From a virus, in IMG/VR virus record IMGVR_UViG_3300028556_000048, positions 1 through 20,746 of that record: 20,746 nucleotides of DNA. One strand, given 5' to 3'. A program made the position numbers and the translations under genes. Shown in pieces: positions 3,440-20,698 of this stretch (positions are counted from its first letter, which is position 1; every line of letters begins with the position of its first letter). Under the pieces are notes generated by a model. It did not search any database. It saw only the letters and a list, made by a program, of their open reading frames with translations, and had not been told where the DNA came from.

Positions 3440-5338
3440 ATGTTTGAAGCCTTTAAGGTAGGCATCACTATTGCCTTGACGAATACGGTCAGTTCCGCGC
3501 TCGGCATGATGAGCAAGGATTTTATCAAGACCGATGCCGAAGCGCAGCGCCTGAAGTCCACGCTTAAAGAAATCAAGATGCTCGGCGCTACCGGGATCCT
3601 GTTCGGCGCAGCTGGGATGATGGGGCTTAAACTGGTGGAAGCGGCTGTAAAGCCCGCCACGGAGTACGCGCACCAGCTTAACATTATGAACATGGCCGGT
3701 CTGAAACAGGCCGAAATTGCTGATGCGGTCGGCGCGGCATGGAAGAACACGCGCGACGTAATGACGACGACGGCCACGGAAAACCTGAAATCGCTTCTCG
3801 ATCTGCGTAACGTGCTTGGCAATATGGAAGACGCCAAGGCCATGTTACCGATTGTTACGAAGATCGAAGCCGTCATGGCAGCGTCCGGCAGTTCGAACCT
3901 TGTGAGTAATGCGCACGATATAGCGTTCAGCATGGCGAAGGCCTTGGACGTGATCGGGGCTGTCAGTAATCCTGCCGTCATGCAGCGCCAAGCCGCAGAA
4001 ATGTCCAAGGTGATTGCAGCCTTTCAGGGCCGCGTGACGCCGCAGATGTTCCAGCAGGTCTTCACTTATGCGCGTCAGGCCAAGTTCGATATGTCGGACG
4101 AATTCAAGTATGAAATCCTGCCCAGCCTTATGCTGGAAATGGCGACAAAAACAGGCGGCGGGGGCGGTTCGCGCGGCGTCGGCCCCATGCTTGCCGCCAT
4201 GTATCGCATAACAAATCAGGGCTATATCAATAAAAAAGCCCTGCCGGAACTGGAAAGCCTCGGCCTTGTGGACGGAAGAAGTGCGCTCCGCACCACGACC
4301 AGCGGAACGACCGTCAGCGCCATGAAGGAAGCCGCGCTTGCCGCCAGCAATCCGTTCCGATGGGTCAATGAAGTTCTGGTTCCTGCCATTCGTAAAAAGT
4401 ACGGCGAAGGAGTCACGGACGAATTTGTGCGCAGCAAGATTAACGAAGTCATGCGCGGCAATCAGCTTGCCGCGTCGATGGCCGTGGAATTCTTCACGAA
4501 ACAAAATAACTTCCTGCGCGACCAGAAAATTATTCAGGGCGCGATGCCGTTTAACGAAGCCTTCAAGCAAGCCACGAATAACGATTATTTCACGGCACGG
4601 ACAATGCTGGATAAGCAATGGGAAAGTTTCAAGATCGCGCTCGGCAAGGATATAGTGCCGATAATCGTACCCGCACTTCTCGCTATGGCGCGTGGCATTA
4701 ATGCTTTGACCAGTGTAATCACGGCGCATCCCACGGCGACGCGCCTTATCATGGAATTCGTGGCCGTCTTTTCAGCCCTGCTTATTGCGGTCGGCACCGG
4801 CGCTGGTATCTATGCCTTGGTACTGGCCTTCGGGCTGCTGGGCGGCATCTTCGCCGTCGGCACAGGGACAATCGGCCTTATCGTGGCTGGTATAGCTGCT
4901 GCGGTCACGGCTGTTTATGAGATTTACGCGCACTGGGGAACAATGTCGGCCAGGATTAAAGCTGTAATCGTCGATATATGGAATAATTCCACGCTTGGGA
5001 TTTTGTGGAACCTTGCGACATGGATTTTCAACTTCGTGGGACGCCTCATAGGTATGTGGCGCGGTAAATCTGGTGACACTGTTCCCGCTGCGCAGACCGT
5101 TACGAACGGCGCGGCTGGCGCTGCCGGAATAGACGTTTCCGGCGCTCCTGGGCAGGGTATGCGGATCGGCGCACCGCCAAAATCTATGCAACCCATAGCG
5201 GTTAACAACCAGCTATTCCTTGATGGGCGGCAGATTCACGAGTCGACCATGCAGTTCATGTATAACGACATGAACGTCGTTCCGCCCACGGGCAGCAGCT
5301 TTGATGGGCGTCAATCTTTGCAGGGCGCTACGCAATGA
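3440..5338 (+). CDS. Tail tape measure protein
   Basis: The longest gene of the tail module, 632 residues, following the chaperone region as expected. Tape measures set tail length and may enter the host membrane during DNA delivery. The N-terminal half is mostly helical and Ala/Met-rich (AALGMM-type segments, a Gly run GGGGG near residue 235). Residues about 405-500 are strongly hydrophobic (VPIIVPALLAMARGI, then ALLIAVGTGAGIYALVLAFG, then IGLIVAGIAAAVTAVYEIY), typical of the membrane-active part. The C-terminus is polar (QSLQGATQ). At about 0.15 nm per residue, a general rule, the tail would be near 95 nm. No cysteine is present. A strong Shine-Dalgarno (GGGGAGG) precedes ATG 3440. Confidence 0.9.
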   Translation: MFEAFKVGITIALTNTVSSALGMMSKDFIKTDAEAQRLKSTLKEIKMLGATGILFGAAGMMGLKLVEAAVKPATEYAHQLNIMNMAGLKQAEIADAVGAAWKNTRDVMTTTATENLKSLLDLRNVLGNMEDAKAMLPIVTKIEAVMAASGSSNLVSNAHDIAFSMAKALDVIGAVSNPAVMQRQAAEMSKVIAAFQGRVTPQMFQQVFTYARQAKFDMSDEFKYEILPSLMLEMATKTGGGGGSRGVGPMLAAMYRITNQGYINKKALPELESLGLVDGRSALRTTTSGTTVSAMKEAALAASNPFRWVNEVLVPAIRKKYGEGVTDEFVRSKINEVMRGNQLAASMAVEFFTKQNNFLRDQKIIQGAMPFNEAFKQATNNDYFTARTMLDKQWESFKIALGKDIVPIIVPALLAMARGINALTSVITAHPTATRLIMEFVAVFSALLIAVGTGAGIYALVLAFGLLGGIFAVGTGTIGLIVAGIAAAVTAVYEIYAHWGTMSARIKAVIVDIWNNSTLGILWNLATWIFNFVGRLIGMWRGKSGDTVPAAQTVTNGAAGAAGIDVSGAPGQGMRIGAPPKSMQPIAVNNQLFLDGRQIHESTMQFMYNDMNVVPPTGSSFDGRQSLQGATQ

Positions 5339-5517
5339 ACTGGGCTGCGATAGTCCTTATAATAGTTCAGGGACATTTAGTTCCTGCCGGAGTTTATGTG
5401 GAACACTTCAATAGCCGCGCGGCATGTATTGTCTTCGCGGATTCAATAAAATCCGACATAGAAGAAATAGACCCTAGACTTCATGTCATTTCTGGCTGCA
5501 TGGACGACTTCAAATGA
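5335..5517 (+). CDS. Small membrane-anchored protein of unknown function
   Basis: A 60-residue protein overlapping the tape measure stop (ATGA at 5335) and the next gene's start (ATGA at 5514), so it is tightly coupled and very probably real. The N-terminus is hydrophobic (WAAIVLIIVQGHLVPAGVYV), resembling a signal anchor or an uncleaved signal peptide. A short polar domain with two cysteines follows (RAACIVF and SGCMDD). I do not recognise a family. It could be an accessory of tape measure insertion, or an adsorption or exclusion protein. The two cysteines would suit a disulphide if the C-terminal part faces the periplasm. Confidence 0.7.
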   Translation: MNWAAIVLIIVQGHLVPAGVYVEHFNSRAACIVFADSIKSDIEEIDPRLHVISGCMDDFK

Positions 5518-6284
5518 TCGTAATTCTAACCCTTGGCGGCGTAATCTTTCAGGATTTTGAGATCCCGGAAAAGATTTCTGGCGGCGGCGCACAGTCGCTG
5601 GACACGAAGAAGTTTCTAGGTGGTTCCAGAATAATCGACGCGCTTGGCAGCGATGATGATGAAATTGCATGGGATGGAAGGTTTCGCGGCTTCGGTGCGG
5701 AAGGGCGATGCCAGCAGCTTGACCTTATGCGGAAGCAGGGCGTTCCGATCAGCCTGACGTTCAGTACCTTCAGCTATCAGGTGCTGATTAAGCGGTTCAA
5801 GTTCGACTTTCAGCAGCCCTTTGAAATCCCGTACAGCATCAGCCTTGAAGTTCTGGTCGACAATAACGCGCCCCCGCCAGGCATACTGGCGACGATAGAT
5901 GAAGTGTTCGGCACGGACTTGGCGGATTCGCTGGATTTAAGTGGCGAAATCGACATACCGGCCATTACGTCGGCGCTGAATAACGTGCAGACGACGGTAA
6001 GCACGATCCAGTCCCTGACGGGCGCGAATTCAGGCGTTTTGAACACGCTTAGCCAGGATATTGTATCGGCGCAGGGCGCGACGCAAACAGCCATCGGCGC
6101 GGCCAGCGGGCAGATTACGCCTGTGGCCGGTTCTGTCTTCGGCGGTGTCGCAGGACTTCCCCCGGCCACAATCGCGGCGAACGTCGCGGGTCAGGCCAGC
6201 AGCTTCGCCAGCCTGTCGAATCTCATTCCGCTTAACTCGGTTCTTGGCGTGATGAATAAGAACCTTGCGACTGTGGGGCCGTAA
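5514..6284 (+). CDS. Tail/baseplate adaptor between tape measure and hub (Mu gpN position)
   Basis: A 256-residue protein. The N-terminal 120 residues show features I associate with baseplate-proximal tail adaptors: LGGVIFQDFEIPEKIS, then GGSRIIDALGSDDDEIAWDG, RFRGFGAEGRC and FSYQVLIKRFKFDF. The pattern of a short strand, E-I-P-E-x-I-x-x-GG, a DALG-DDD turn, W-x-G-x-F-x-G and a late IPY strand is shared by phage proteins that bridge the tube end and the hub. The C-terminal half is Ala/Ser/Thr-rich and low in charge. The neighbours on both sides (tape measure module, then LysM/gpX-like and gpD-like) fit the position of the Mu DNA circulation protein. The specific biochemical role is not shown by the sequence. 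Confidence 0.6.
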   Translation: MIVILTLGGVIFQDFEIPEKISGGGAQSLDTKKFLGGSRIIDALGSDDDEIAWDGRFRGFGAEGRCQQLDLMRKQGVPISLTFSTFSYQVLIKRFKFDFQQPFEIPYSISLEVLVDNNAPPPGILATIDEVFGTDLADSLDLSGEIDIPAITSALNNVQTTVSTIQSLTGANSGVLNTLSQDIVSAQGATQTAIGAASGQITPVAGSVFGGVAGLPPATIAANVAGQASSFASLSNLIPLNSVLGVMNKNLATVGP

Positions 6285-6505
6285 TGCAGAATATCAATGT
6301 GGCGGGCGGCAATCTTTTCCAGCTTGCCCTGCAATATCTCGGCGACGCTACGCAATGGAACAGAATTGCGCTGGCGAATCTATCGACTCTTGCGCCTAAT
6401 GGCGGCGTTCCAGACCCTGTGATTGCAGGGGTCGTAAACCTTAACATTCCATCCATTAATACGGATGCTGGCGGCGGTGTCTATGTTCCTCCCCTCCCCG
6501 ACTAG
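6284..6505 (+). CDS. LysM/gpX-like small tail protein
   Basis: A 73-residue protein starting with a one-base overlap (TAATG). VNLNIPS near residues 51-57 and GGNLFQLALQYLGDATQWNRIA at residues 8-29 (a G-x-L-x-x-L-A-x-x-x-LGD-x-x-W-x-x-I-A pattern) are the classic small LysM motif of P2 gpX-type proteins, which cap or connect the tube end near the baseplate hub. A Pro-rich tail (YVPPLPD) ends it. The gene lies directly before the gpD-like hub, as gpX does in P2-like phages. Confidence 0.75.
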   Translation: MQNINVAGGNLFQLALQYLGDATQWNRIALANLSTLAPNGGVPDPVIAGVVNLNIPSINTDAGGGVYVPPLPD

Positions 6506-7589
6506 CCCAGCTGCGACGGCAAACAAGGCCAGAAAGCCTATCCTTGCCGCGCTGCTGAACGGCCAGACCGCGTTGCCATGCTACGAATCCGACATTACGA
6601 ACACGGCACATTTCACCAGCGACACTTTCCGCGCCTGTTTCGCGCTATCCGGTATGCCGCAAGGCCTGGGCGCGTCTTACTGGTCGGACAGCAGCAACGA
6701 TCAGATTCAGATTTCGATGGGGCTGGTGGGCGATACGCCCGTGCCATTCATTCTCGGCCAAGTCGATAATGCCGAAATAGATCAGGTGAAGCAAATCCTG
6801 ACACTGACTGGCCGTGATTTGTCAGCCGTGTTTATCGACACGAAGACGACGGAGAAGTATCAGAACCTTACCAGCAGCGACATTGCCGGAATGCTGGCAG
6901 ACGCGCATGGAATGCAGAAAAACATAGCCGCGACGACGACAAAGGTGGGAACTTATTACGTCGAAGATCAGGTGGCGCTGACGCGCGAAGAATCGGAATG
7001 GGATTTGCTGATTTATCTCGCGCAGCATGAAGGCTTCGATTTATGGGTAAGCGGAAACACGCTTAATTTCCAGCCCAGCGTCGATTTGTCCACGGCTGTG
7101 CCCTACGTCCTTATTTATAGTGATGCGGGCGCTGGCGGTGCAGGGAAGTTTTCCAGCTTTACAGGCCTGAAAATGAACAGGTCGCAAACGCTGGCCAAGG
7201 ACGTGATAGTCAAGGTTCGGACTTGGAATCAGATCAATGCCAAGGTTTATAACGTCACAGCGAAACGCACCCAGGCCAGCAAGGGGCAACGCTCCGGCGG
7301 CGTGGCGCAGACATATAGTTTCACGGTTCCAAATCTGGATGAGGAAGGCGCATTGAATTACGCGCAGCAGAAGGCGGAAGAAATTTCGCGGCATGAACGG
7401 GTTATTAATGCTGATTTGGCCGGGGATAATTCCTTGTCGATACGGACGCCGGTACAGCTTGTCGGGACGGGAACAAGTTTCGATCAGAAATACTACCCCG
7501 ATAGCATCACGCGCCGCATCAGCTTTGAAAAATATACGATGAGTCTTCGCGCCAAGAACCACAGCGTAGAATCAACGGTGTTGGCATGA
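6483..7589 (+). CDS. Baseplate hub protein, late control gpD / Mu gp44-like
   Basis: About 368 residues. The protein carries the fold features of gpD-family hubs: an opening KPILAALLNGQTALPCYES, then ITNTAHFTSDTFRACF, a strand pair FILGQVDNAEI, then a LTGRDLSAVFIDTKT segment and a C-terminal QKAEEISRHE helix followed by RTPVQLVGTGTSFDQKYY. The GRDLSA-type stretch is typical. The hub joins spike and tube. Two in-frame starts are possible, ATG 6465 and ATG 6483. I chose 6483 because GGCGG lies upstream and the overlap with the preceding gene is shorter. The stop overlaps the spike gene start (ATGA). Confidence 0.85.
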   Translation: MFLPSPTSPAATANKARKPILAALLNGQTALPCYESDITNTAHFTSDTFRACFALSGMPQGLGASYWSDSSNDQIQISMGLVGDTPVPFILGQVDNAEIDQVKQILTLTGRDLSAVFIDTKTTEKYQNLTSSDIAGMLADAHGMQKNIAATTTKVGTYYVEDQVALTREESEWDLLIYLAQHEGFDLWVSGNTLNFQPSVDLSTAVPYVLIYSDAGAGGAGKFSSFTGLKMNRSQTLAKDVIVKVRTWNQINAKVYNVTAKRTQASKGQRSGGVAQTYSFTVPNLDEEGALNYAQQKAEEISRHERVINADLAGDNSLSIRTPVQLVGTGTSFDQKYYPDSITRRISFEKYTMSLRAKNHSVESTVLA

Positions 7590-8242
7590 ATGTAAGTGGC
7601 TTACTCAATATAATGCGGCGCGAAAGCGAAAAGGTTGTTGCGCAACAGGCTGACACCCGCATGGCCATTGTGGACAGCTACGATCCTGTGCGGTACTGCG
7701 CGAAGGTCTGGATACAGCCGGAAAATGTTTTGACTGGATTCCTGCCCATCGCTACGGAATGGGTCGGCAACGGATGGGGCATGTTCTGCCCGCCTACCAA
7801 GGGCGATGTGGTTGACGTGCATTTTCAGGAATGGGGAAAAAACGCTGGCTATATCAGCAAGCGGTTCTTCAGCGATCCTACGCCTCCCCTGCCCGTCAAT
7901 AGCGGCGAATTCTGGCTGGTGCATCAATCCGGCAGTTGTTTGAAGTTTACGAACGACGGGAAGGTTCTTGTGCAAAGCGCCACGGACATGAATTTGCAGG
8001 TCGGTAACGACTTAAATATAAATGTTCTCGGCGGTGTCAGCTTAACATCGGTCGATGATATTAATATGACAGCGCCGAACCTGAACGTCACCGGCAATAT
8101 CACGGCAACGGGCGACATTACGGATCAGTCCCTTACGACAAACGAATCCATGCGCGATCAGCGCCAGATATACGATTCCCATACGCACCCAGGCGTCCAG
8201 TCCGGCGGCTCGAACACGGGCGCACCGAACCAGCCGGAGTAG
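7586..8242 (+). CDS. Baseplate assembly protein V, central spike (P2 gpV / Mu gp45 type)
   Basis: A 218-residue membrane-piercing spike. An N-terminal OB-like domain (about 20-100) contains AIVDSYDPVRYCAKVWI, FLPIATEWVGNGWGMF, PPTKGDVVDVHFQE. Then comes a beta-helix of short repeats (VLVQSATDMNLQVGNDLNI, LNVTGNITATGDIT). The C-terminal end HTHPGVQSGGSNTGAP (H199 and H201) is the iron-binding apex motif of P2 gpV and Mu gp45, which form trimeric needles with H-x-H coordinated metal. The start overlaps the hub stop by four bases. Confidence 0.92.
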   Translation: MNVSGLLNIMRRESEKVVAQQADTRMAIVDSYDPVRYCAKVWIQPENVLTGFLPIATEWVGNGWGMFCPPTKGDVVDVHFQEWGKNAGYISKRFFSDPTPPLPVNSGEFWLVHQSGSCLKFTNDGKVLVQSATDMNLQVGNDLNINVLGGVSLTSVDDINMTAPNLNVTGNITATGDITDQSLTTNESMRDQRQIYDSHTHPGVQSGGSNTGAPNQPE

Positions 8243-9750: not shown

Positions 9751-10509
9751 ATGGCGACTGGCGATCAGAATGATATGGTGTCCCGCCTGAAAGCGGCGAT
9801 ACCGAAGGGCTGGTTCGCAGACGTTGCGCCGGTGCGCGATGCCGTTCTTAACGGCTTCGCCTATGCCATGTCACTGATTTACGGGCTTGTGGCTTTCGCA
9901 AAGCTGCAAACCCGCATAAAATCCGCCACGGACGGCTTCCTGGATCTGGTCAGCTTCGACTTTTTTGGAACCCTGCTGCCGCGCGGCGCTGGCGAAGCGG
10001 ATAACCCATTCCGTGCCAGAATTCTTTTCAACCTGCTGCGCGAAAAAGCAACGCGCAACGGTATGGTGAAAATCCTTACCGAACTGACTGGATTTGTCCC
10101 TACCATTTTCGAGCCGTGGCGACCCCTCGATACGGGGGCATGGAACGTGAATATATGGGGCTACGGCATGGCGGGCGGTTATGGATCGCTGGCGCTGCCG
10201 TACCAGGCCTTTATCACGGCATACCGTCCCGTCGGCTTCGGCATTCCTAATGTGGCTGGCTACTGCGATCCGGAAGGCGCTTACAGCACACCGAGCCAGG
10301 GCGAATGGGCGAACCCGTCCCTGATAGCTGGCGGTGTAACGGATGCAGATATTTATGCCGCGATTGCCGACACGAAGATGGAAGGCACGATTGCCTGGGC
10401 GCAAATAACGAATTTCCCTGTACCGTTCAATCCTCCAAAACTTTTGCAGGAAGACGGCACTTCGGAAATCTTACTCGAAGATGGTCAGGGCTACCTTGGC
10501 CTTGGCTAA
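9751..10509 (+). CDS. Baseplate/tail protein in the gpI / Mu gp48 position
   Basis: A 252-residue protein. The first 115 residues follow a pattern common in baseplate proteins after gpJ: GWFADVAPVRDAVLNGF, then SATDGFLDLVSFDFFG (D-G-x-x-x-D-L-x-x-x-D-x-F-G), then NPFRARILFNLL and TRNGMVKILTELTGFVP. The second half is Gly/Tyr/Trp-rich (NIWGYGMAGGYGSLALPY) and may contact the fibres. It ends LEDGQGYLGLG. It is probably the last wedge gene, linking baseplate to fibre; the gene order supports this more than any single motif. Confidence 0.72.
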   Translation: MATGDQNDMVSRLKAAIPKGWFADVAPVRDAVLNGFAYAMSLIYGLVAFAKLQTRIKSATDGFLDLVSFDFFGTLLPRGAGEADNPFRARILFNLLREKATRNGMVKILTELTGFVPTIFEPWRPLDTGAWNVNIWGYGMAGGYGSLALPYQAFITAYRPVGFGIPNVAGYCDPEGAYSTPSQGEWANPSLIAGGVTDADIYAAIADTKMEGTIAWAQITNFPVPFNPPKLLQEDGTSEILLEDGQGYLGLG

Positions 10510-10532
10510 CAATTTGAAACAGGAGAGTCACC

Positions 10533-12491
10533 TTGGATAGACGCATAGTTTATGTCGGCGCAATCCCGCAGGATAGCGACGTTCTATACACGAACCGCTA
10601 CGCTATGATTAGCGATGGATGGGTCGCGCAAGGCATCTTAGGCATAGCAACGCTCTTTAGCGGCCTCGCCTGTACGCCGACAAGCCCTGCCGGAATGACG
10701 GTCAACGTCGCGCCAGGCGCTGTCTTTTCGCAGCAGAACATCGACAACAGCGCCTATGGCAGCTTGTCGCCAGATACGGCGGATCAGGTCGTAAAGGTCG
10801 GAATCAATCAATCCACGCAGAATTTCAGTTGCCCAGCGCCGGTAACGGCTGGGCAAAGCGTGGTATATCTTATCGAAGCCGCGTTCGTGGAACAGGACAC
10901 CGGATCGGTCGTCCTTCCGTATTACAACGCCGCCAATCCGACGGCACCTTTCAATGGGCCGAATAACAGCGGCATTTCGCAAAACACAATCCGGCAGGAC
11001 GTTTGCAGCATTCAGGTGAAGGTGGGCGTACCGGCCACGACAGGTCTTCAAGCCATTCCTGCGCCGGATGCTGGATATACAGGGCTTTACGCCATCACCG
11101 TCGCCAATGGGCAGACAACCATCGTGTCAGGCAATATCAGCATCGTAAGCGGTGCGCCGTTCATCACGGAAACGCTGACGCAGAAAATCAGCCAAGCCAC
11201 GGGCGACGCGCGTTACGCAATGATTACGGGTGTGCAGAATAATTCCTATGCGTTCGGCATAGATACGAGCGTGTCCGCAAATACTTTGACGGTTAATCTT
11301 TCCCCTGCGCCTTCCGTTATCACGCAAGGCATGACTTTAATCATTACCGTAGCGAATAATAATACGGGCGCATCCACGATTAACGTGAATGGCCTGGGCG
11401 CAAAAAGCATAACGAAGAATGGCGGTAACGCGCTGACCGGCGGCGAACTTCAGGCGGGACAGAACGTCGAATTATCCTACAACGGTTCGGCATGGAATCT
11501 TCTTTCCCAAACCACGCCAGTTACCACGGTTTATGCCGGTTCCGGATCGACGACCGGCACGGCGAACGCCCAAGTCCTTGCGACCGTAACGCCGGGCGGT
11601 TTTAGCCTTGTCTATGGCGATGCCGTCACCTTCACGGCTGGATTCACAAACACCGGCGCTATGACAATAAATGTGTCCAGCAGCGGTGCCATCACCATCA
11701 AGAAAAAGAATTCCGGCGGCGGCCTTGTCGATCTTGCGGCAAGCGACATTGTGGCAACGGACATTTATCAGATCATCTATGACGGCACATACTGGGAATT
11801 AAATTCGCAATCGTTCCCCGCAGCCAGCACGTTCTTCCAGACGGCAAATAATTTGTCGGAAGGCGTTCTTGCCACGAAACAGGCGAACCTTGGCATAGAC
11901 CCTACATCGTTCTTTTCCACGGGTGACGTTAAGCTAACCCTGAAAACCGTAGCCGATACGGGCTGGGTTATGTGTAACGACCAAACCATCGGCAGCGCGG
12001 CGTCCAGCGCGGCTTATGCGAATGCGAATGCACAGGCTCTATTTACCCTGCTGTGGAACAACGTAAGCAATACCTATGCGCCTGTTTCCAGCGGTCGCGG
12101 CGCAAATGCGGCAGCGGATTGGGCGGCGAACAAGACTATCCAGCTTACGCAAATGATGGGCCGTGCGCTCGGTATTTCAGGCGCTGGCGCTGGCTTGACG
12201 GCGCGGACGCTTGGCCAAACTTTCGGCAACGAAAATCTGCAAACCCATACGCATACAGCGACTGTCACCGATCCTACCCATCAACATTCCATGAACGCTC
12301 CGGCGTCAGCGGAAGGACAGGGCGGTTCGGAGGTGCAGTTCGGGCTTGTCGAATCCTACCCCGCTGGTATCTCTGGTGCGCCAAGCACACCGGCAAGCAC
12401 CGGCATTACCGTTGCCAATGCGAATACCGGCACTGGCACGGCGGGCAATATGCAGCCTACCCTGTTCCTGAACGCCATGATTAAACTGTAA
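10533..12491 (+). CDS. Tail fibre with C-terminal collar domain (TTG start)
   Basis: A 652-residue fibre. The start is TTG 10533: AGGAG (10521-10525) lies seven bases upstream and the conserved DRRIVYVGAIPQDSDVLYTN follows at once. Two related beta-sandwich-like repeats lie at about residues 239-325 and 335-426. Each runs NTGA-x-TINV, then GA-x-(S/T)I-x-K, and ends with a YDG/YNG-x-x-W-x-L-x-S motif. The C-terminal collar region begins near GDVKLTLKT (464), with GWVMCNDQTIG, ALFTLLWNN and a HTHTATVTDPTHQH cluster (572-585) of the metal-binding type seen in collar fibres; it ends with MQPTLFLNAMIKL. The fibre should contact the host receptor. Four cysteines, no signal peptide. Confidence 0.88.
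   Translation: MDRRIVYVGAIPQDSDVLYTNRYAMISDGWVAQGILGIATLFSGLACTPTSPAGMTVNVAPGAVFSQQNIDNSAYGSLSPDTADQVVKVGINQSTQNFSCPAPVTAGQSVVYLIEAAFVEQDTGSVVLPYYNAANPTAPFNGPNNSGISQNTIRQDVCSIQVKVGVPATTGLQAIPAPDAGYTGLYAITVANGQTTIVSGNISIVSGAPFITETLTQKISQATGDARYAMITGVQNNSYAFGIDTSVSANTLTVNLSPAPSVITQGMTLIITVANNNTGASTINVNGLGAKSITKNGGNALTGGELQAGQNVELSYNGSAWNLLSQTTPVTTVYAGSGSTTGTANAQVLATVTPGGFSLVYGDAVTFTAGFTNTGAMTINVSSSGAITIKKKNSGGGLVDLAASDIVATDIYQIIYDGTYWELNSQSFPAASTFFQTANNLSEGVLATKQANLGIDPTSFFSTGDVKLTLKTVADTGWVMCNDQTIGSAASSAAYANANAQALFTLLWNNVSNTYAPVSSGRGANAAADWAANKTIQLTQMMGRALGISGAGAGLTARTLGQTFGNENLQTHTHTATVTDPTHQHSMNAPASAEGQGGSEVQFGLVESYPAGISGAPSTPASTGITVANANTGTGTAGNMQPTLFLNAMIKL
11247..11810 (+). repeat. Two diverged copies of a beta domain within the collar fibre
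   Basis: Residues about 239-325 and 335-426 share the sequence pattern NTGA-x-TINV, then GA-x-(S/T)I-x-K, ending in a Y(N/D)G-x-x-W-x-L-x-S turn. They look like shaft modules duplicated at protein level; the DNA identity is low by eye. Confidence 0.6.
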
Positions 12492-12501
12492 GGAAAAATC
12501 A

Positions 12502-12570
12502 ATGATGAACAAGTTTTTACCCCTGCTAGGCCTTCTGGCCGCGCTTCTGCTGCCCGCGCATGGCTACGCG
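12502..12570 (+). other. Sec signal peptide coding segment of the fibre-like protein
   Basis: It encodes residues 1-23: a Lys after three residues, 15 largely hydrophobic residues, then PAHGYA with small residues at -3 (Gly) and -1 (Ala). The Shine-Dalgarno and the ATG-ATG start just after the collar fibre stop fix the N-terminus here, so this is not an artefact of a wrong start. Confidence 0.8.
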
Positions 12571-15500
12571 CAGAACAGCACGATCAGCGGATTGAACAAC
12601 GGCGGTCTGCTTCAGACGGGCGACAATATCCCGATTGCGCGAAGCGGGGTTAACTACCGCGCCCATATCGGGCCTCTTGGTGCGCTTGGCGGTGGTAACG
12701 GACTTGTCACCATCGGCACGACGCTAAATCTTGCAAACCCGCTTTCCTACGCATGGGGCATAAGCACGAACCTAGCCAATCTTCCCGCACCGCAGACGGG
12801 CAGCCTTATCCAGCTGGGCAGCGCCGACACGGTAAATACACGCATCGAACTTGATGCCTTCGGCGCGAAATCCTATTTCACAGGTGTTTGCTTCGGCAAT
12901 ACGGCTGGAACGCCTCTGGCTGTCACAAGCGGCACGGAATGCGGTGCCTATAACGTCCATGCCTATAATGGAGCCAGCGTCGTAGGGCCGCTTGCCACGT
13001 TCCACATGTTCGCGGCTGAAAATCAAAGCAGCGGGCATGGCGGGTTCTATGCAGAAATTGCGACGACCCCCATCGGTACTACAGCGATGGCACCTGTCGT
13101 CCGCTTTGAAAATGATGGCGGCATAACTGTCCCATCCACGGTTACGGGGGGAAGCAAAGCCGCCGGTACGCTGAACATCAGCGGCGGTTATTATCTTCTC
13201 GGCACCAAAATTGCCCAAACAGCTTCTTCCCCACTTGTCCTGACGGCTGGCGCTCTTACCTGCCCGACATGCGTTACGACTTCTGGCGGTTCGATCACGG
13301 GAACGCCCCCCATATCGGTAAGCGGGGCTGGTGCCGTATCAATCGCAAATGCTGCATCGGACGGCAGCACGAAGGGCGCGGCTGCGTTCAATGCGACAGA
13401 CTTTTCTTGCAGCGCCGGTGTCTGCGATACGATACAGGGCATCGCCACGGCGTCGACCCCTTCCTTTGCCGGATTGACGCTTACCGCAAATCTCACCCTA
13501 TCCACGCACAATCTTGTCACGGATACCACGACCGGAACGAAGATTGGTACCGCGACAAATCAAAAGATCGGTTTCTTTAACGCTACCCCGATTGTCCAAC
13601 CCAGCGGCGAAATCATAACCGCGCTGCAAAATCTTGGCCTGGGCGCAAGCCTTACCATCGCGGCGTCCGATATTGCGAACGCGGCCAGCGATGGCGCTAC
13701 CAAAGGGGTCGCAGCTTTCAATGCCACGGATTTCACCTGCACGACCGGCGTGTGCGATACCATTCAAGGCATTGCCACGACTTCCACCCCATCTTTTGCC
13801 GCGCTGACGCTGACGGGGAATTTGACGCTTTCCACGCATAACATCGTCAGCGATACGGTTACTGGAACGAAAATCCTGACGGCGACGACGCAGAAACTTG
13901 GCTTTTATAACGCCACGCCTATCGTGCAGCCCACGGGCGATATTGTCACCGCGTTAAGCAATCTCGGCCTTGTCGGAACCCCGACGCTTTCCGGCGCAGA
14001 TATTACGCTCGGCGTTGTCCCCGCCGCGAACGGCGGCGCTGGCGCTATCACTGGCGCACTGAAGGCAAACGGTAGCGGCACCGTCACGCAAGCGGCTTGC
14101 GCCGATCTCTCGAACGGTGCCACGGGTTGCAACACGGCGACCGGCACCACGGGCGCGACGATTGCGCTGAACAATGGCAATAATACCTTCAGCGGCAATA
14201 TCCTTTTCAGCGGAAATTCCGGTACGCTGGCGAACGGCAAAGCCACGGTCTTCGGTGTAGCCGCATCGGGCGGCATCTTCTCCGGGCAGGGCAGCACCAG
14301 CGACGTAACGATTCAGAATAAATCTGCCGCTGCTGTCTGCAATGTGCTTACCGGCACAACGCAATGGAACTGCATAACCTATCAGGTTAACGCGAACGGC
14401 ATCCTAAGTTCCCCAGCTGCTGCCACGCTTCATTTAGGCGCGGCTGACGCGGCATCGCCCGTGGCGCAGACCCTTGGCGTTCAGAACGTCGTGGGTGGCA
14501 CCAGCAACACGGCGGGCGCGAACTTTACCATAGCGGCTTCGCAAGGCACAGGCACCGGCATTGGCGGCAGCATCATTATCCAGACAGCCCCCGCCGGTAC
14601 GACCGGCACGTCGCAGAACGCCCTTGCCACGGCCATGACGATCAATAACACGGGCGGCGTCACTATCGGCGCACCGACCGGCGGTGACAAAGGCGCTGGC
14701 ACGATGAACGTGGCAGGAAATCTGTATATCAATAACGTGGCTGTGGCGGCTGGCATTTCAGCGAACACGGCGACAGGCCTTTCCTCCGGATTCGTCAATA
14801 AATTTCGTAACGCGCAGATGGAAATTGCTCAACTCGGCACTTCCGGCACGGTGACGACTGGTGCCGATCTTTACACGCTTGATGGCTGGCAGGTTCACAC
14901 CGTAGGCGCAAGCGTCACATGGTCGCAAAGCGGGGCTTTGACGCTGGCCAGCACCAGCCAGAAGGTAGCTAAGTCGCTGACGGTTACAGGCCTGACAAGC
15001 AATACGGACACACAGGTCTATCAGCGCATTCAAAGCTATGATGCGGCTGCGCTGGCGGGTCAGCAAGTAACGGGACAATTCACATACACGAACAACACCG
15101 GCGCAACGAACACGCCGCAGATAGTTGGATGCTACGCTTCGTCGGCTGACAATTTCGGCACCTGCACGGCTGATCTTGCCGCCGTGAACATGCAAGCCTG
15201 TACCAATGGGTCGACCTGCACAGAAGCATATTCGTTTGTTGCTTCGGCAAATGCTGTGAATGGCTACCAAATCACGATTGATTTTGGAGCCATGAACAGC
15301 AATGCGAAGAACGTAGTTATTTCTGCGGCTGATCTGCGCGTAACTCCGGCAGCAACGACCGGCACAATTTCCACGCCTCCATACCCAGAACTTGCGCCGA
15401 TTGGCGCGGAATATGCCCGCGATGAAGTCTATTTTGAAAGCAGCTACGACAACGGAACAGCGCCAGGCACCGCTACTTTTGTCGGCGCGACGCAATGGGT

Positions 15501-15741
15501 AAATTATTCCACGACGAACGCAAACTTCTTTATCAGATGGAGAACCAGGAAACGCTGCGATCCGACCGTAACATCTTATAGCCCGACGACTGGCGCAAGC
15601 GGTAAGTTAGATACAGGCGGAAGCGGCGATGTGGGGGCTAATATATCCAGCCAGGGCCAAACAGGAACGCTTATCAGCGATTCTGGTAGCATTGGGCTTG
15701 CCGCCATGTCCTATCAATATGTCGCTGATTGCCGACTCTAG
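12502..15741 (+). CDS. Large fibre-like protein with Sec signal peptide and receptor-binding C-terminus
   Basis: A 1079-residue protein with a clear signal peptide: basic N-terminus MMNK, hydrophobic core FLPLLGLLAALLLPA, probable cut after GYA (residue 23). The mature part starts QNSTISGL-x-NGG-x-L-x-x-GD-x-IPIARSGV, a start pattern common to phage fibres. Residues 283-490 hold a tandem repeat of 110 residues. The C-terminal domain from about 767 (KFRNAQMEIAQLGTSG, then LYTLDGWQVHT, later APIGAEYARDEVYFESSYDNG) resembles the carbohydrate-binding end of many tail fibres. It has 18 cysteines, most in pairs 4-15 residues apart, unlike the other tail proteins here. AAGGAAAAA precedes ATG 12502. 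A signal peptide is odd for a virion protein assembled in the cytoplasm. Confidence 0.8.
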   Translation: MMNKFLPLLGLLAALLLPAHGYAQNSTISGLNNGGLLQTGDNIPIARSGVNYRAHIGPLGALGGGNGLVTIGTTLNLANPLSYAWGISTNLANLPAPQTGSLIQLGSADTVNTRIELDAFGAKSYFTGVCFGNTAGTPLAVTSGTECGAYNVHAYNGASVVGPLATFHMFAAENQSSGHGGFYAEIATTPIGTTAMAPVVRFENDGGITVPSTVTGGSKAAGTLNISGGYYLLGTKIAQTASSPLVLTAGALTCPTCVTTSGGSITGTPPISVSGAGAVSIANAASDGSTKGAAAFNATDFSCSAGVCDTIQGIATASTPSFAGLTLTANLTLSTHNLVTDTTTGTKIGTATNQKIGFFNATPIVQPSGEIITALQNLGLGASLTIAASDIANAASDGATKGVAAFNATDFTCTTGVCDTIQGIATTSTPSFAALTLTGNLTLSTHNIVSDTVTGTKILTATTQKLGFYNATPIVQPTGDIVTALSNLGLVGTPTLSGADITLGVVPAANGGAGAITGALKANGSGTVTQAACADLSNGATGCNTATGTTGATIALNNGNNTFSGNILFSGNSGTLANGKATVFGVAASGGIFSGQGSTSDVTIQNKSAAAVCNVLTGTTQWNCITYQVNANGILSSPAAATLHLGAADAASPVAQTLGVQNVVGGTSNTAGANFTIAASQGTGTGIGGSIIIQTAPAGTTGTSQNALATAMTINNTGGVTIGAPTGGDKGAGTMNVAGNLYINNVAVAAGISANTATGLSSGFVNKFRNAQMEIAQLGTSGTVTTGADLYTLDGWQVHTVGASVTWSQSGALTLASTSQKVAKSLTVTGLTSNTDTQVYQRIQSYDAAALAGQQVTGQFTYTNNTGATNTPQIVGCYASSADNFGTCTADLAAVNMQACTNGSTCTEAYSFVASANAVNGYQITIDFGAMNSNAKNVVISAADLRVTPAATTGTISTPPYPELAPIGAEYARDEVYFESSYDNGTAPGTATFVGATQWVNYSTTNANFFIRWRTRKRCDPTVTSYSPTTGASGKLDTGGSGDVGANISSQGQTGTLISDSGSIGLAAMSYQYVADCRL
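13348..13980 (+). repeat. Tandem 330-base (110-residue) repeat in the fibre-like gene
   Basis: Copy 1 begins at 13348 and copy 2 at 13678. Both encode NAASDG-x-TKG-x-AAFNATDF-x-C, a GVCDTIQGIAT-x-STPSFA stretch, LTLSTHN-(L/I)-V, a TGTKI-x-TAT block, then F-(F/Y)-NATPIVQP-x-G-(E/D)-I-(I/V)-TAL-x-NLGL. The second copy runs to about 13980. The protein is strongly alike but many codons differ, so the duplication is old or under selection. Each copy has one Cys pair (S/T-C and GVC). Confidence 0.85.
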
Positions 15742-16791: not shown

Positions 16792-17010
16792 ATGGGTTGG
16801 CTTTCCGCACTTTGGGCTTTTGTTAAAGCAATTCCTGCATGGATACAGGATTTACAAAGCGGGAAGGATCAGCGCATAGGGGAACAGATGCAGCAAGGCG
16901 CAGACCTTGCCGCAGCGCAGAAAAACAACGCGGATATGGCCAAGGCCGCCGCCAATGCGCCGAAGACACTTCAGGAACTGGAAGACGAACAGAACGCGGG
17001 GAAAGTGTAA
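16792..17010 (+). CDS. Inner-membrane spanin-like protein (Rz type)
   Basis: A 72-residue protein starting at ATG 16792 with GGAG seven bases upstream. It begins MGWLSALWAFVKAIPAWI, a short hydrophobic/amphipathic segment, then a Gln/Ala-rich helix (RIGEQMQQGADLAAAQK), and ends NAPKTLQELEDEQNAGKV. The Ala-Pro, then Leu/Glu-rich, then Gly-Val end is the usual finish of short Rz-like proteins I know from alphaproteobacterial phages. The hydrophobic anchor is weak, so membrane insertion is uncertain. The next gene overlaps its stop by one base and is a lipoprotein, the expected partner. Confidence 0.6.
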   Translation: MGWLSALWAFVKAIPAWIQDLQSGKDQRIGEQMQQGADLAAAQKNNADMAKAAANAPKTLQELEDEQNAGKV

Positions 17011-17321
17011 TGCTGCGCTACATTATAATTTCAACCATCCTTCTGATGCTGACGGGTTGTGAACTATTTAGCAGCAATCCAGCGCCTATCGTTTTAGGCT
17101 GCCCCGCGCTGAAAGATTATTCGGCAGATGAACAGAAGGCACAGGCACAAGCCGAAGCCGCCCTGCCAGCCAATTCACCGCTTGCCGCGCCGCTTCTGGA
17201 ATGGGGCGATCTTCGCGCCCAGCTGAAATTGTGTCAGACACAGCCCGGCGCTGCGCCACTTCCGCCCGATGCAGCGCCTGTAGCGCCGGTGAAAAAATCC
17301 TTCTTCGGAACGTCGCTATGA
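17010..17321 (+). CDS. Outer-membrane lipoprotein spanin-like protein (Rz1 type)
   Basis: A 103-residue protein starting at ATG 17010 (TAATG overlap). The signal has a lipobox: MLRYIIISTILLMLTGCELF, with the lipidated Cys at 17. After it come GCPALKDYSADEQ, ALPANSPLAAPLLEWGDLRAQLKLCQ and a Pro-rich end (APLPPDAAPVAPVKK). The order CP-x-L-x-x-YS, AL-P-x-x-SPL, W/Y-G-x-LR-x-Q-x-x-x-C is a pattern I know from small phage lipoproteins next to Rz-like genes. With the upstream gene it would bridge inner and outer membranes and fuse them in the last step of lysis. Confidence 0.7.
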   Translation: MLRYIIISTILLMLTGCELFSSNPAPIVLGCPALKDYSADEQKAQAQAEAALPANSPLAAPLLEWGDLRAQLKLCQTQPGAAPLPPDAAPVAPVKKSFFGTSL

Positions 17322-18439: not shown

Positions 18440-18943
18440 ATGAGGCTAAGGGATTTAATCAAGATTAAAAAAACGATCACCGCCTTGGGGAAATGGCAGG
18501 TGGGCAAGATGCCTCGTTCTGCATTTCCTTTATCAAAATCAGGCAATAGGGCTTACAGACTCGGCAATCGCAGGTGGCGGGTTGTAGAATTTACAGTGGA
18601 AAGTTTATGTTTTCGGCTGTTAATCAATTATAATCCCCTTCTCCTACAATATCAGGCCATGCTGGGCTTGACGCAGGGAAATGACACAAAGGTTTTGGCA
18701 TCTCTTGAGTATCATGGAACTCATGGCTCATGGCATGTCCATACCTCATGTGACATTTTCGACTCTATTCCTGCGGGAATTAAAAGAGGGCCATGGATAA
18801 CGCGCCTTCCAAGTCCAAAAAACTACAATAGGGCAGGAATTTTTGTTATAGGTGATGATGCAGCATTTACTCGTGCTATTGACTTTTTTGGGTTAGATAA
18901 AACAGCAGATTCGACAACCGATGCACCGAGGTTTCCATTGTGA
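18440..18943 (+). CDS. Uncharacterised protein paired with a DUF1828-like gene
   Basis: A 167-residue protein. The start is uncertain: ATG 18440 has no clear Shine-Dalgarno, whereas ATG 18509 (residue 24) follows AGGTGGGC. The sequence has a basic N-terminus (RDLIKIKKTITALGKW), then NRAYRLGNRRWRVVEF and CFRLLINYNPLLLQY. The stretch YHGTHGSWHVHTSC (91-104) has four His, then IKRGPWITRLP, and the end is RAIDFFGLDK. The H-x-x-H-x-x-x-H-x-H group could bind a metal. I cannot name a family. The codon and base make-up is AT-richer than the phage operon, suggesting recent acquisition. The GTGA overlap with the next gene implies a single functional unit. Confidence 0.6.
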   Translation: MRLRDLIKIKKTITALGKWQVGKMPRSAFPLSKSGNRAYRLGNRRWRVVEFTVESLCFRLLINYNPLLLQYQAMLGLTQGNDTKVLASLEYHGTHGSWHVHTSCDIFDSIPAGIKRGPWITRLPSPKNYNRAGIFVIGDDAAFTRAIDFFGLDKTADSTTDAPRFPL

Positions 18944-19725
18944 AAGAAGAACTCTGCAAAGCCTTCTGTAGTGAGTTACAAGTCCGCGAGGTTCCGGCAG
19001 GGCTGGCGGTGGGGACTGGCTTTCAGGGCATCACCGGAGATCAAATAGGATTTTATATTGTTGGCCCAGATACAAGAAATATGTGGCGCGTACAAGATGA
19101 TGGCGCGACTATTCCATTTATTGAAGCGGCTGGCGGTGACCTCGAAATTGAGGCTCGTTCTGATGTGTTCGATTCTTTATTAGAGGAATACGACACGACA
19201 TACGATCCTGATACTGGTGAACTTTCGAGTTTGCCAGTCTCCAAAAACGACCTTCCACAAACGGCAATTCAGTTTGTAGCGTTATTGTTACGCATTCAAG
19301 ACATACTATTTATGACGAGAGAACGCGCTGAATCTACATGGGTTCAGGAGGCAACGCGAGACTTACAAAGTTCCTTGGGTAATCGTGGCACCATCGAAGA
19401 AAACGCAGCCGTCATGCCTAGCGTTGCGGAATATGCTGCCGACATAGTTGTAAGGACTACGGGTCGTTCACCAGTTGCGCTATTCTTTGGAATCAACGAT
19501 GCAAAAGCATACGAAGCGTTGATGTTTCATTTCATGGTGAACTATAAATTAAAGTTAAATGTTCCTGTGGTTTTGCTATTGGAAAAGGATAACTCTTTAA
19601 CAAGAAAAGCGCGAACCAGAGTTGATAATAATATCATTGTTCCGCGTTATCGTGGTGGAGAACATGAAGCAATAGGCCGAATTGTAGAGACTGCTACCGG
19701 AGAGAGATTAGACACTGTTCACTGA
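18940..19725 (+). CDS. DUF1828-like protein
   Basis: A 261-residue protein from GTG 18940 (GAGG eight bases upstream, GTGA overlap with its partner). The first 95 residues match what I recall of DUF1828: LCKAFCSELQVREVPAGLAVGT, then GDQIGFYIV, a WRVQDDGATIPFIEAAGGDLE segment and an EYDTTYDPDTGEL turn. The middle is helical (QFVALLLRIQDILFMTRER). The end has DAKAYEALMFHFMVN, then PVVLLLEKD and NNIIVPRYRGG, which could be a DUF1829-type tail. DUF1828 has no settled function to my knowledge. Its position with an unknown partner, next to a transposase at the accessory end of a phage, is typical of cargo. A defence or toxin-antitoxin role is only a guess. Confidence 0.6.
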   Translation: MKEELCKAFCSELQVREVPAGLAVGTGFQGITGDQIGFYIVGPDTRNMWRVQDDGATIPFIEAAGGDLEIEARSDVFDSLLEEYDTTYDPDTGELSSLPVSKNDLPQTAIQFVALLLRIQDILFMTRERAESTWVQEATRDLQSSLGNRGTIEENAAVMPSVAEYAADIVVRTTGRSPVALFFGINDAKAYEALMFHFMVNYKLKLNVPVVLLLEKDNSLTRKARTRVDNNIIVPRYRGGEHEAIGRIVETATGERLDTVH

Positions 19726-19741
19726 CAGCTAAACTTACTTT

Positions 19742-20698
19742 CTACGCGTCAGTCCGCCGATATGTAAGACGCTTACCAACGGCCCCCGATAAAGCTGCAT
19801 CTGCTCTTTCGGCGTCAGAGATTTTTCTTTCATTGTATCTGAAATCAAACTCCGCAACGTAGCGGCCAAGGTGTTGTTGGCTAACATGATGGAACGTGCC
19901 AACAATACCGCGTTTCAGGATTGAAAAGTAATTTTCAACCGTGTTCGTATGCCAGAAGGTACCGCGCACATATTCACCGCCACTATGGTTCACGCTGCCA
20001 TGTCCGGCAAAGGCTTCGGTAACAGCCGGATAAACCCTAGCTTCGTCCGTCATTAGGTAGGTTTTCTTGTCGATATGACGGTCAAGAATAGGGCGAAGCG
20101 TTTTCGCCGTGACTTCCGGCAAGTGCATGGAACGCACCCTACCGTCACGCTCGACAAGGGAAACGACAGGGGCTTTGCCGACAGCGCCACGGCCAGCGCG
20201 TAAACGCTTGTTGGCGTGTTTGTTCTTTTCCTTGCCGCCCACATACGTTTCGTCAATTTCCACAACCTTATTCTGGCCGCCCATAGGCGTCATATTACCG
20301 TCCTTCATTGCTTCACGGATGCGATGACACATAAACCACGCGCTTTTATAAGTGATTTCCAAGGTGCGCTGGATTTGCAGGGCAGAAATGCCTTTCTTGC
20401 TGCTACACATGAGATAGGTAGCCTGTAACCATTTGTGCAGAGGAATGTGGCTGCTTTCGTAAACGGTGCCTACGGTCACGGTAAACTGCTCACGGCAAGC
20501 GCCGCACTTTTTCAGGCCAAAGCGTTCCTTGCCTTCGGGGTTCTTCTTGGAGGGCTTGGATTTGACGCCTTCGAGGCAATAGACCTTCTCTGTGCTGCCG
20601 CAATGGGGGCAGACAGCACCGTGAGGCCACAGGATGCCCTCTAGGTAGGCATACGCCTTGGCTTCATCGTGAAAATGGGGCTTGGATAGGATAGACAT
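19742..20698 (-). mobile_element. IS1595-family (ISXO2-like) transposase
   Basis: A 318-residue transposase from ATG 20698 with GGAG upstream. A zinc ribbon lies at the start: CPHCG (30-34) and CGACREQFTV (65-74, with GTVYESSHIPLHKW after it), the classic ISXO2 layout. A helical DNA-binding region follows (residues 100-130). The catalytic core shows EIDETYVGG (D149), YLMTDEARVY (D218) and WHTNTVENYFSILKRGI with N252/E255 and K262, matching the DDN/E-K triad region, then a FDFRYNER end motif (284-291). It is full length with no stop or frameshift and appears intact. The enzyme would act as a DDE-type integrase-like nuclease. Terminal inverted repeats are not seen. Confidence 0.88.

Follow-up and report, generated by a model that had tools for sequence, protein, structure and literature searches.

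A fibre-like phage protein with a predicted Sec signal peptide and paired cysteines, and similar proteins in other tailed phages

The DNA analysed here, referred to as the window, is an IMG/VR record of 20.7 kb (20,746 nucleotides) and comprises the tail half of a contractile-tailed phage. Its genes are ordered sheath, tube, tape measure, hub, baseplate genes, a collar-type fibre, ORF 12502–15741, and small lysis-type genes. ORF 12502–15741 occupies the fibre slot, directly 3' of the baseplate genes and 5' of the lysis genes. The features considered below are as follows.

9751–10509, + strand: baseplate-region protein (PHROG match, phrog_26379), the query used for finding syntenic phages
10533–12491, + strand: collar-type fibre gene without a signal peptide, immediately upstream of ORF 12502–15741 (phrog_8763 tail protein, E 5e-22)
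12490–12494, + strand: Shine-Dalgarno sequence AAGGA, 7 bases 5' of the ATG at 12502
12502–15741, + strand: fibre-like ORF with an ATG start, encoding a 1079-aa precursor with 18 cysteines
12502–12570, + strand: Sec signal peptide, residues 1–23, predicted cut GYA/QNS (rule-based test)
12574–12690, + strand: mature N-terminal motif xTIxxL..D.xP...xG, similar to the first residues of signal-less fibres in the syntenic loci L039, L076, L078, and L080 (weak by profile)
12799–13194, + strand: fibre domain, residues 100–231, shared with signal-bearing fibres of L001, L099, L100, L103, L217, and others
13348–14007, + strand: two 110-residue repeats, each with one C-x4-C pair (FSCSAGVCDTI and FTCTTGVCDTI); borders approximate
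14455–14670, + strand: residues 652–723, with 62% identity to a signal-bearing protein of phage ctLpZ231
15388–15738, + strand: C-terminal domain, homologous to the tip of the Stenotrophomonas phage Silvanus tail fibre, where C1019 and C1077 are missing

The initial annotation proposed a Sec signal peptide behind a Shine-Dalgarno sequence, and both parts of this proposal held. The AAGGA element lies 7 bases 5' of the ATG at 12502, sets this start, and overlaps the stop of the upstream gene; a further ATG is present at 12505. The N-terminus, MMNKFLPLLGLLAALLLPAHGYA followed by QNST, combines a positively charged n-region, an extended hydrophobic core, and, up to residue 23, the signal-peptidase-type site GYA, behind which cleavage is predicted. 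The rule-based signal test was positive for this protein, for only 0.86% of shuffles of its own letters, and for none of the 12 other structural ORFs of the window.

The 18 cysteines of the protein (1.67 per 100 aa) are found at positions 130, 147, 254, 257, 303, 308, 413, 418, 533, 543, 613, 624, 877, 888, 900, 906, 1019, and 1077. The description of them as mostly close pairs is accurate: 16 have a neighbour no more than 19 residues away (p=0.001 against random placement). The contrast drawn with other proteins of the window also stands, with two cysteines in the partial sheath, four in the collar fibre, and none in the tape measure. C1019 and C1077, which are 58 residues apart, are a plausible pair as well; S and A occupy the aligned positions in the signal-less Silvanus tail fibre.

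The window protein had no match in Pfam, in PHROG, or in a sequence search of the PDB. Homology to known virion fibres is present at the sequence level: the C-terminal 117 residues match the Silvanus tail fibre tip (E 2e-12), residues 639–723 match the ctLpZ231 protein, which is itself signal-bearing, and the internal domain (residues 100–231) recurs in the fibre 2 family described below. The N-terminal motif shares T-I-x-x-L, D, P, and G with signal-less neighbours, a weak match with a profile probability of 9%. The internal domain was modelled with a pLDDT of 70 and is predicted to have a tail-fibre fold; the structural matches of the model were Bdellovibrio Bd1334 (E 1e-4), Bd2439, and the L-shaped tail fibre of phage T5 (4uw8, E 3e-3), and it also resembles viral tail fibres. 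C130 and C147 roughly coincide in position with the cysteine pairs in this domain of the relatives. The similarity to the T5 fibre consists in the fold of 4uw8/4uw7, to which the predicted fold corresponds; the difference is that the Pfam search found no S74 chaperone domain in the window protein. The T5 fibre is made without export. Cytoplasmic manufacture without a signal peptide is usual for tail fibres, although not definitional, and the window protein departs from it.

We compared the content of the fibre slot between syntenic phages, using the baseplate-region protein (nearest named relative, a Polynucleobacter prophage, 56%), which retrieved 68 viral and 8 genomic relatives. A Phage_sheath_1 search was uninformative, as it missed the sheath of the window itself. 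The gene 3' of the collar fibre varies among the syntenic relatives. In L013 and L064, the slot of the window gene is occupied by a signal-bearing tailspike-like protein (568 aa in L013, 467 aa in L064), and the L064 record has an integrase. In L038, L039, L047, L076, and L077–L080, it is occupied by large signal-less fibres that start directly with the motif TIxxLP..DDxLP..NG. A signal-bearing tailspike is also encoded by a named phage, Acetobacter phage phiAO1, whose strain is mitomycin-inducible. Its protein PhiAO1_380 (BCZ75793.1), a pectate-lyase-like tailspike, resembles the window protein in its signal peptide, its cysteines (two in the mature form), and its location in the tail region. 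It differs in that its sequence is unrelated and its cysteines are fewer, and the phage was predicted by its authors to be incomplete. At L104 6945–9928, in phiAO1, a short signal-less protein beginning MPLSALP is encoded just 5' of the signal-bearing tailspike; the arrangement looks like a division of N-terminal motif and spike between two genes.

The internal domain of the window protein also led to contractile-tail phages (L099, L100, and L103) with consecutive signal-bearing genes 3' of baseplate genes. The first of these genes represents fibre 1, an established tail-fibre family with matches to PHROG 12796 (tail fibre, E 8e-33) and, in L114, to a Collar domain (E 6e-23), and homologous to the tail fibres of Bcep1, Bcep781, and Acinetobacter AB1; the second represents fibre 2. 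Tblastn searches of annotated phages and plasmids with the window N-terminus, the window domain, and fibre 2 gave no useful relatives, and a profile built on the short N-terminal motif proved too narrow for surveying genomes. Two scans yielded 144 fibre 1 loci with 84 distinct domains. In signal-less forms, the domain begins at about residue 3; in the other forms, the signal peptide ends exactly at this point. The cysteine pair takes the form NC..GGC in place of NG..GGV, and a different pair is present within the same domain in L116 and L099. Among distinct sequences, at least two cysteines are present in the domain of 23 of 27 signal-bearing forms and of 0 of 56 signal-less ones (with the start of L210 taken as GTG), an association for which Fisher values count related sequences and hence are not strict probabilities, parity after clustering being the better test. 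A phylogenetic sign test of joint change in signal and cysteines was underpowered, with 9 changes on the best tree, one of them forced by well-supported branches. The signal-bearing forms may stem from few origins, as no more than one is forced by the tree. Modelling of the fibre 1 protein gave a poor result (pLDDT 58).

The fibre 1 genes are placed 3' of contractile-tail baseplate genes, and near the fibres in the carrier records are a sheath (PHROG 205), a baseplate protein (PHROG 6), and a structural protein (PHROG 587). By these neighbours, the carriers of signal-bearing fibres are true phages. A single copy of the fibre 1 gene was present in each of the 12 records checked; this count concerns fibre 1 only, and the relative in L259–L261 has another, signal-less glycine-rich protein, for which reason export is not claimed here for every fibre of these phages. 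In 18 of 22 records, some of which may be incomplete, no tyrosine or serine recombinase was found, and this argues against a purely lysogenic role. In a profile survey of 289 genomes, four matched fibre 1, and the three fibre-1-like reading frames inspected had no obvious signal peptide. The Bcep781/AB1-type cytoplasmic fibres (PHROG 12796 and 38625; Collar PF07484) occupy the same slot behind the baseplate genes as the signal-bearing fibres, share the N-terminal domain with signal-bearing fibre 1, and have modular adhesive C-terminal parts. In contrast to signal-bearing fibre 1, they have neither a signal peptide nor a conserved cysteine pair. The window protein has the slot and the design in common with this type, but not the N-terminal domain.

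Fibre 2 is defined by the N-terminal motif PTxxQWNxxFxxKQDxLGYTPLN and is represented by 35 signal-bearing and 13 signal-less forms, a few of the latter being partial hits. The typical signal-peptidase site A-x-A/Q closes nearly all of the fibre 2 signals. Cysteines amount to 1.30 per 100 residues in the signal-bearing forms versus 0.35 in the signal-less ones (p=1e-5), and several fibre 2 proteins that contain the window internal domain have a pair of cysteines at a similar position. Downstream (3') of fibre 1 in L138, L145, L148, and L150, there are very short ORFs (101–144 aa mature) that consist of no more than the fibre 2 N-terminus behind a signal-like start; these are perhaps truncated or stand-alone exported N-terminal domains. 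In L002, a third consecutive signal-bearing gene of the tail region (9990–10907) looks more like an esterase/depolymerase than a fibre.

Because the periplasm disfavours free cysteines, exported proteins that are fully bonded should carry even numbers of them. Among complete mature proteins, the number is even in 21 of 23 signal-bearing fibre 1 forms and odd in 2 (p=3e-5), and even in 31 of 32 signal-bearing fibre 2 forms and odd in one (p=8e-9), the fibre 2 counts ranging from 2 to 22. With one sequence per cluster at 50% identity, 22 of 23 are even (p=3e-6); at 40%, 16 are even and none odd. Signal-less fibre 1 comprises 15 even and 27 odd forms and 10 without cysteines. Nine phages combine a signal-less fibre 1 with a signal-bearing fibre 2, a comparison in which host and habitat are controlled for. 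In these, all nine fibre 2 proteins are even, against two even and six odd fibre 1 proteins. In cysteine density, by contrast with parity, the two fibres show no significant difference within the nine phages (p=0.18). L197 provides a natural within-phage contrast: its fibre 1 (3992–5056), closely similar in sequence to signal-bearing forms, has neither signal nor cysteine pair and lies beside a signal-bearing fibre 2 with 20 mature cysteines (5076–7823). Other signal-bearing fibres contain 12 (L001), 4 (L004), 14 (L013), 4 (L064), 2 (phiAO1), 14 (L002, second gene), 8 (L099, first gene), and 18 (window) cysteines; the first gene of L002, with 9, is an exception.

Since paired, even cysteines accompany the signal peptide both across families and within single phages, export and disulphide bonding of the signal-bearing fibres are very probable. 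The link between export and paired cysteines that the initial annotation suggested for one protein is thereby strongly supported, and the survey of signal peptides in homologues that it called for revealed the same combination in other phages and in two further fibre families. Homologues that lack the signal region but keep the rest, which were expected to speak against the idea, do exist; they also lack the cysteine pairs, and therefore represent a natural control rather than a refutation.

Tail assembly is taught as a cytoplasmic process, and virion fibres normally have no signal peptide. We nonetheless consider it somewhat probable that the window gene encodes an exported virion tail fibre, the receptor-binding protein of a contractile-tailed phage, which is oxidised in the periplasm and joins the tail around lysis. 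The precursor would pass through SecYEG and be cut after residue 23. In the periplasm, the chain would fold, trimerise, and become locked by up to nine disulphides made by the host Dsb system, as suggested by the even, paired cysteines that accompany the signal peptide across families. The fibre would be held there while heads and tails are assembled in the cytoplasm, until lysis removes the inner-membrane barrier and allows it to be fitted to the baseplate via its N-terminal domain. The phage would gain a disulphide-stabilised fibre for extracellular life and avoid premature contact with cytoplasmic partners. We give about even chances to the broader proposition that several groups of tailed phages complete their virions outside the cytoplasm by means of Sec-exported, disulphide-bonded fibres, the signal and the cysteine pairs being gained or lost jointly, a trait that individual fibre genes can switch.

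The virion-fibre reading has to be weighed against the possibility that the exported protein acts outside the virion, on the cell surface or in the medium, as an adhesin or decoy that blocks receptors, excludes other phages, or aids host adhesion. The mosaic adhesive trimer (MAT) proteins of Bdellovibrio, phage-fibre-like mosaics behind a signal peptide, act as surface adhesins (PMC10769870), and the window domain finds its best structural matches in two of them; apart from phage T5, the nearest solved folds are these Bdellovibrio surface fibres. Furthermore, signal-less fibre-like genes are also present in the window phage (the collar fibre) and in L259 (the glycine-rich protein), so that the exported protein need not be the fibre of the virion, and at least one signal-bearing syntenic relative, the L064 record, carries an integrase. 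The weak match of the window N-terminal motif to the signal-less fibres also counts against the virion reading, as do the non-significant density difference within the nine phages and the possibly few origins of signal-bearing fibre 1. However, the signal-bearing proteins replace ordinary fibres in the normal fibre slot, fibre 1 is the sole copy, the N-terminal fibre domain is kept although an adhesin would have no need of a baseplate-side domain, and most records contain no recombinase gene. These observations favour the virion fibre over the decoy, which we regard as unlikely. Of the two readings offered by the initial annotation, a fibre added after export thus appears better supported than a decoy made by the lysogen.

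It is also conceivable, but quite improbable, that the hydrophobic start is left uncleaved and holds the fibres in the inner membrane, in the manner of the signal-anchor-release (SAR) starts of some phage endolysins (PMC6116005), until holin depolarisation times their release for lysis. Lysis-type genes do lie immediately downstream in the window, but a signal-peptidase site is present in nearly all fibre 2 proteins (A-x-A/Q) and in the window protein (GYA/Q), and the mature proteins begin where the signal-less fibres do. That the hydrophobic start is functionless and the cysteines have no structural role appears hardly credible: about 1% of shuffled sequences do pass the simple signal test, but the recurrence of the combination in many phages, the even cysteine numbers, the conserved cut site, and the negative signal test of every other structural ORF tested in the window contradict chance or artefact.

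Exported phage proteins are already known, among them endolysins, spanins, and exclusion lipoproteins. Lys44 of fOg44, for example, is made late and exported via the Sec system of the host (PMC6116005); such Sec-exported endolysins, including the SAR endolysins, share this route with the window protein but are lysis enzymes and not virion parts. The MAT proteins resemble it in their signal peptide and fibre modules, with the tips of Bd1334 and Bd2439 as the best structural matches, but are encoded by chromosomal genes of the predator and serve as adhesins on prey with no virion role, whereas the window gene is part of a phage tail operon. The MAT superfamily has a conserved β-rich domain of ~130 aa right behind the signal; the window protein has a signal peptide and a 132-residue β domain, the latter at 100–231 and not immediately behind the signal. 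Our literature search, conducted outside subscription papers, turned up no account of virion tail fibres that bear signal peptides, or of Sec-exported, disulphide-paired ones.

If the signal-bearing proteins are virion fibres, some phages use host export and Dsb oxidation for a part of the virion and have a late, extracytoplasmic assembly step. This would change the way receptor-binding proteins are recognised, as the absence of a signal peptide was taken as support for phage origin in one survey (PMC6199706), and would affect the laboratory production of such proteins (oxidising conditions) and the dependence of phages on host genes (secA, dsbA). If they are exported adhesins instead, MAT-like surface proteins would have a source in phages.

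Three further genes were noted downstream in the window. An inner reading of ORF 16839–17321 (17010–17321, + strand; MLRYIIISTILLMLTGCELF...) resembles a small lipoprotein, such as the outer-membrane spanin of a lysis cassette. The right end of the record carries a transposase-like gene (19742–20698, − strand; PHROG 25593), presumably of the IS1595/ISXO2 type, and because of its position the phage part of the record may stop or be interrupted there. A DUF1828 protein (Pfam E 2e-9; PHROG 5059) is encoded at 18940–19725 on the + strand.
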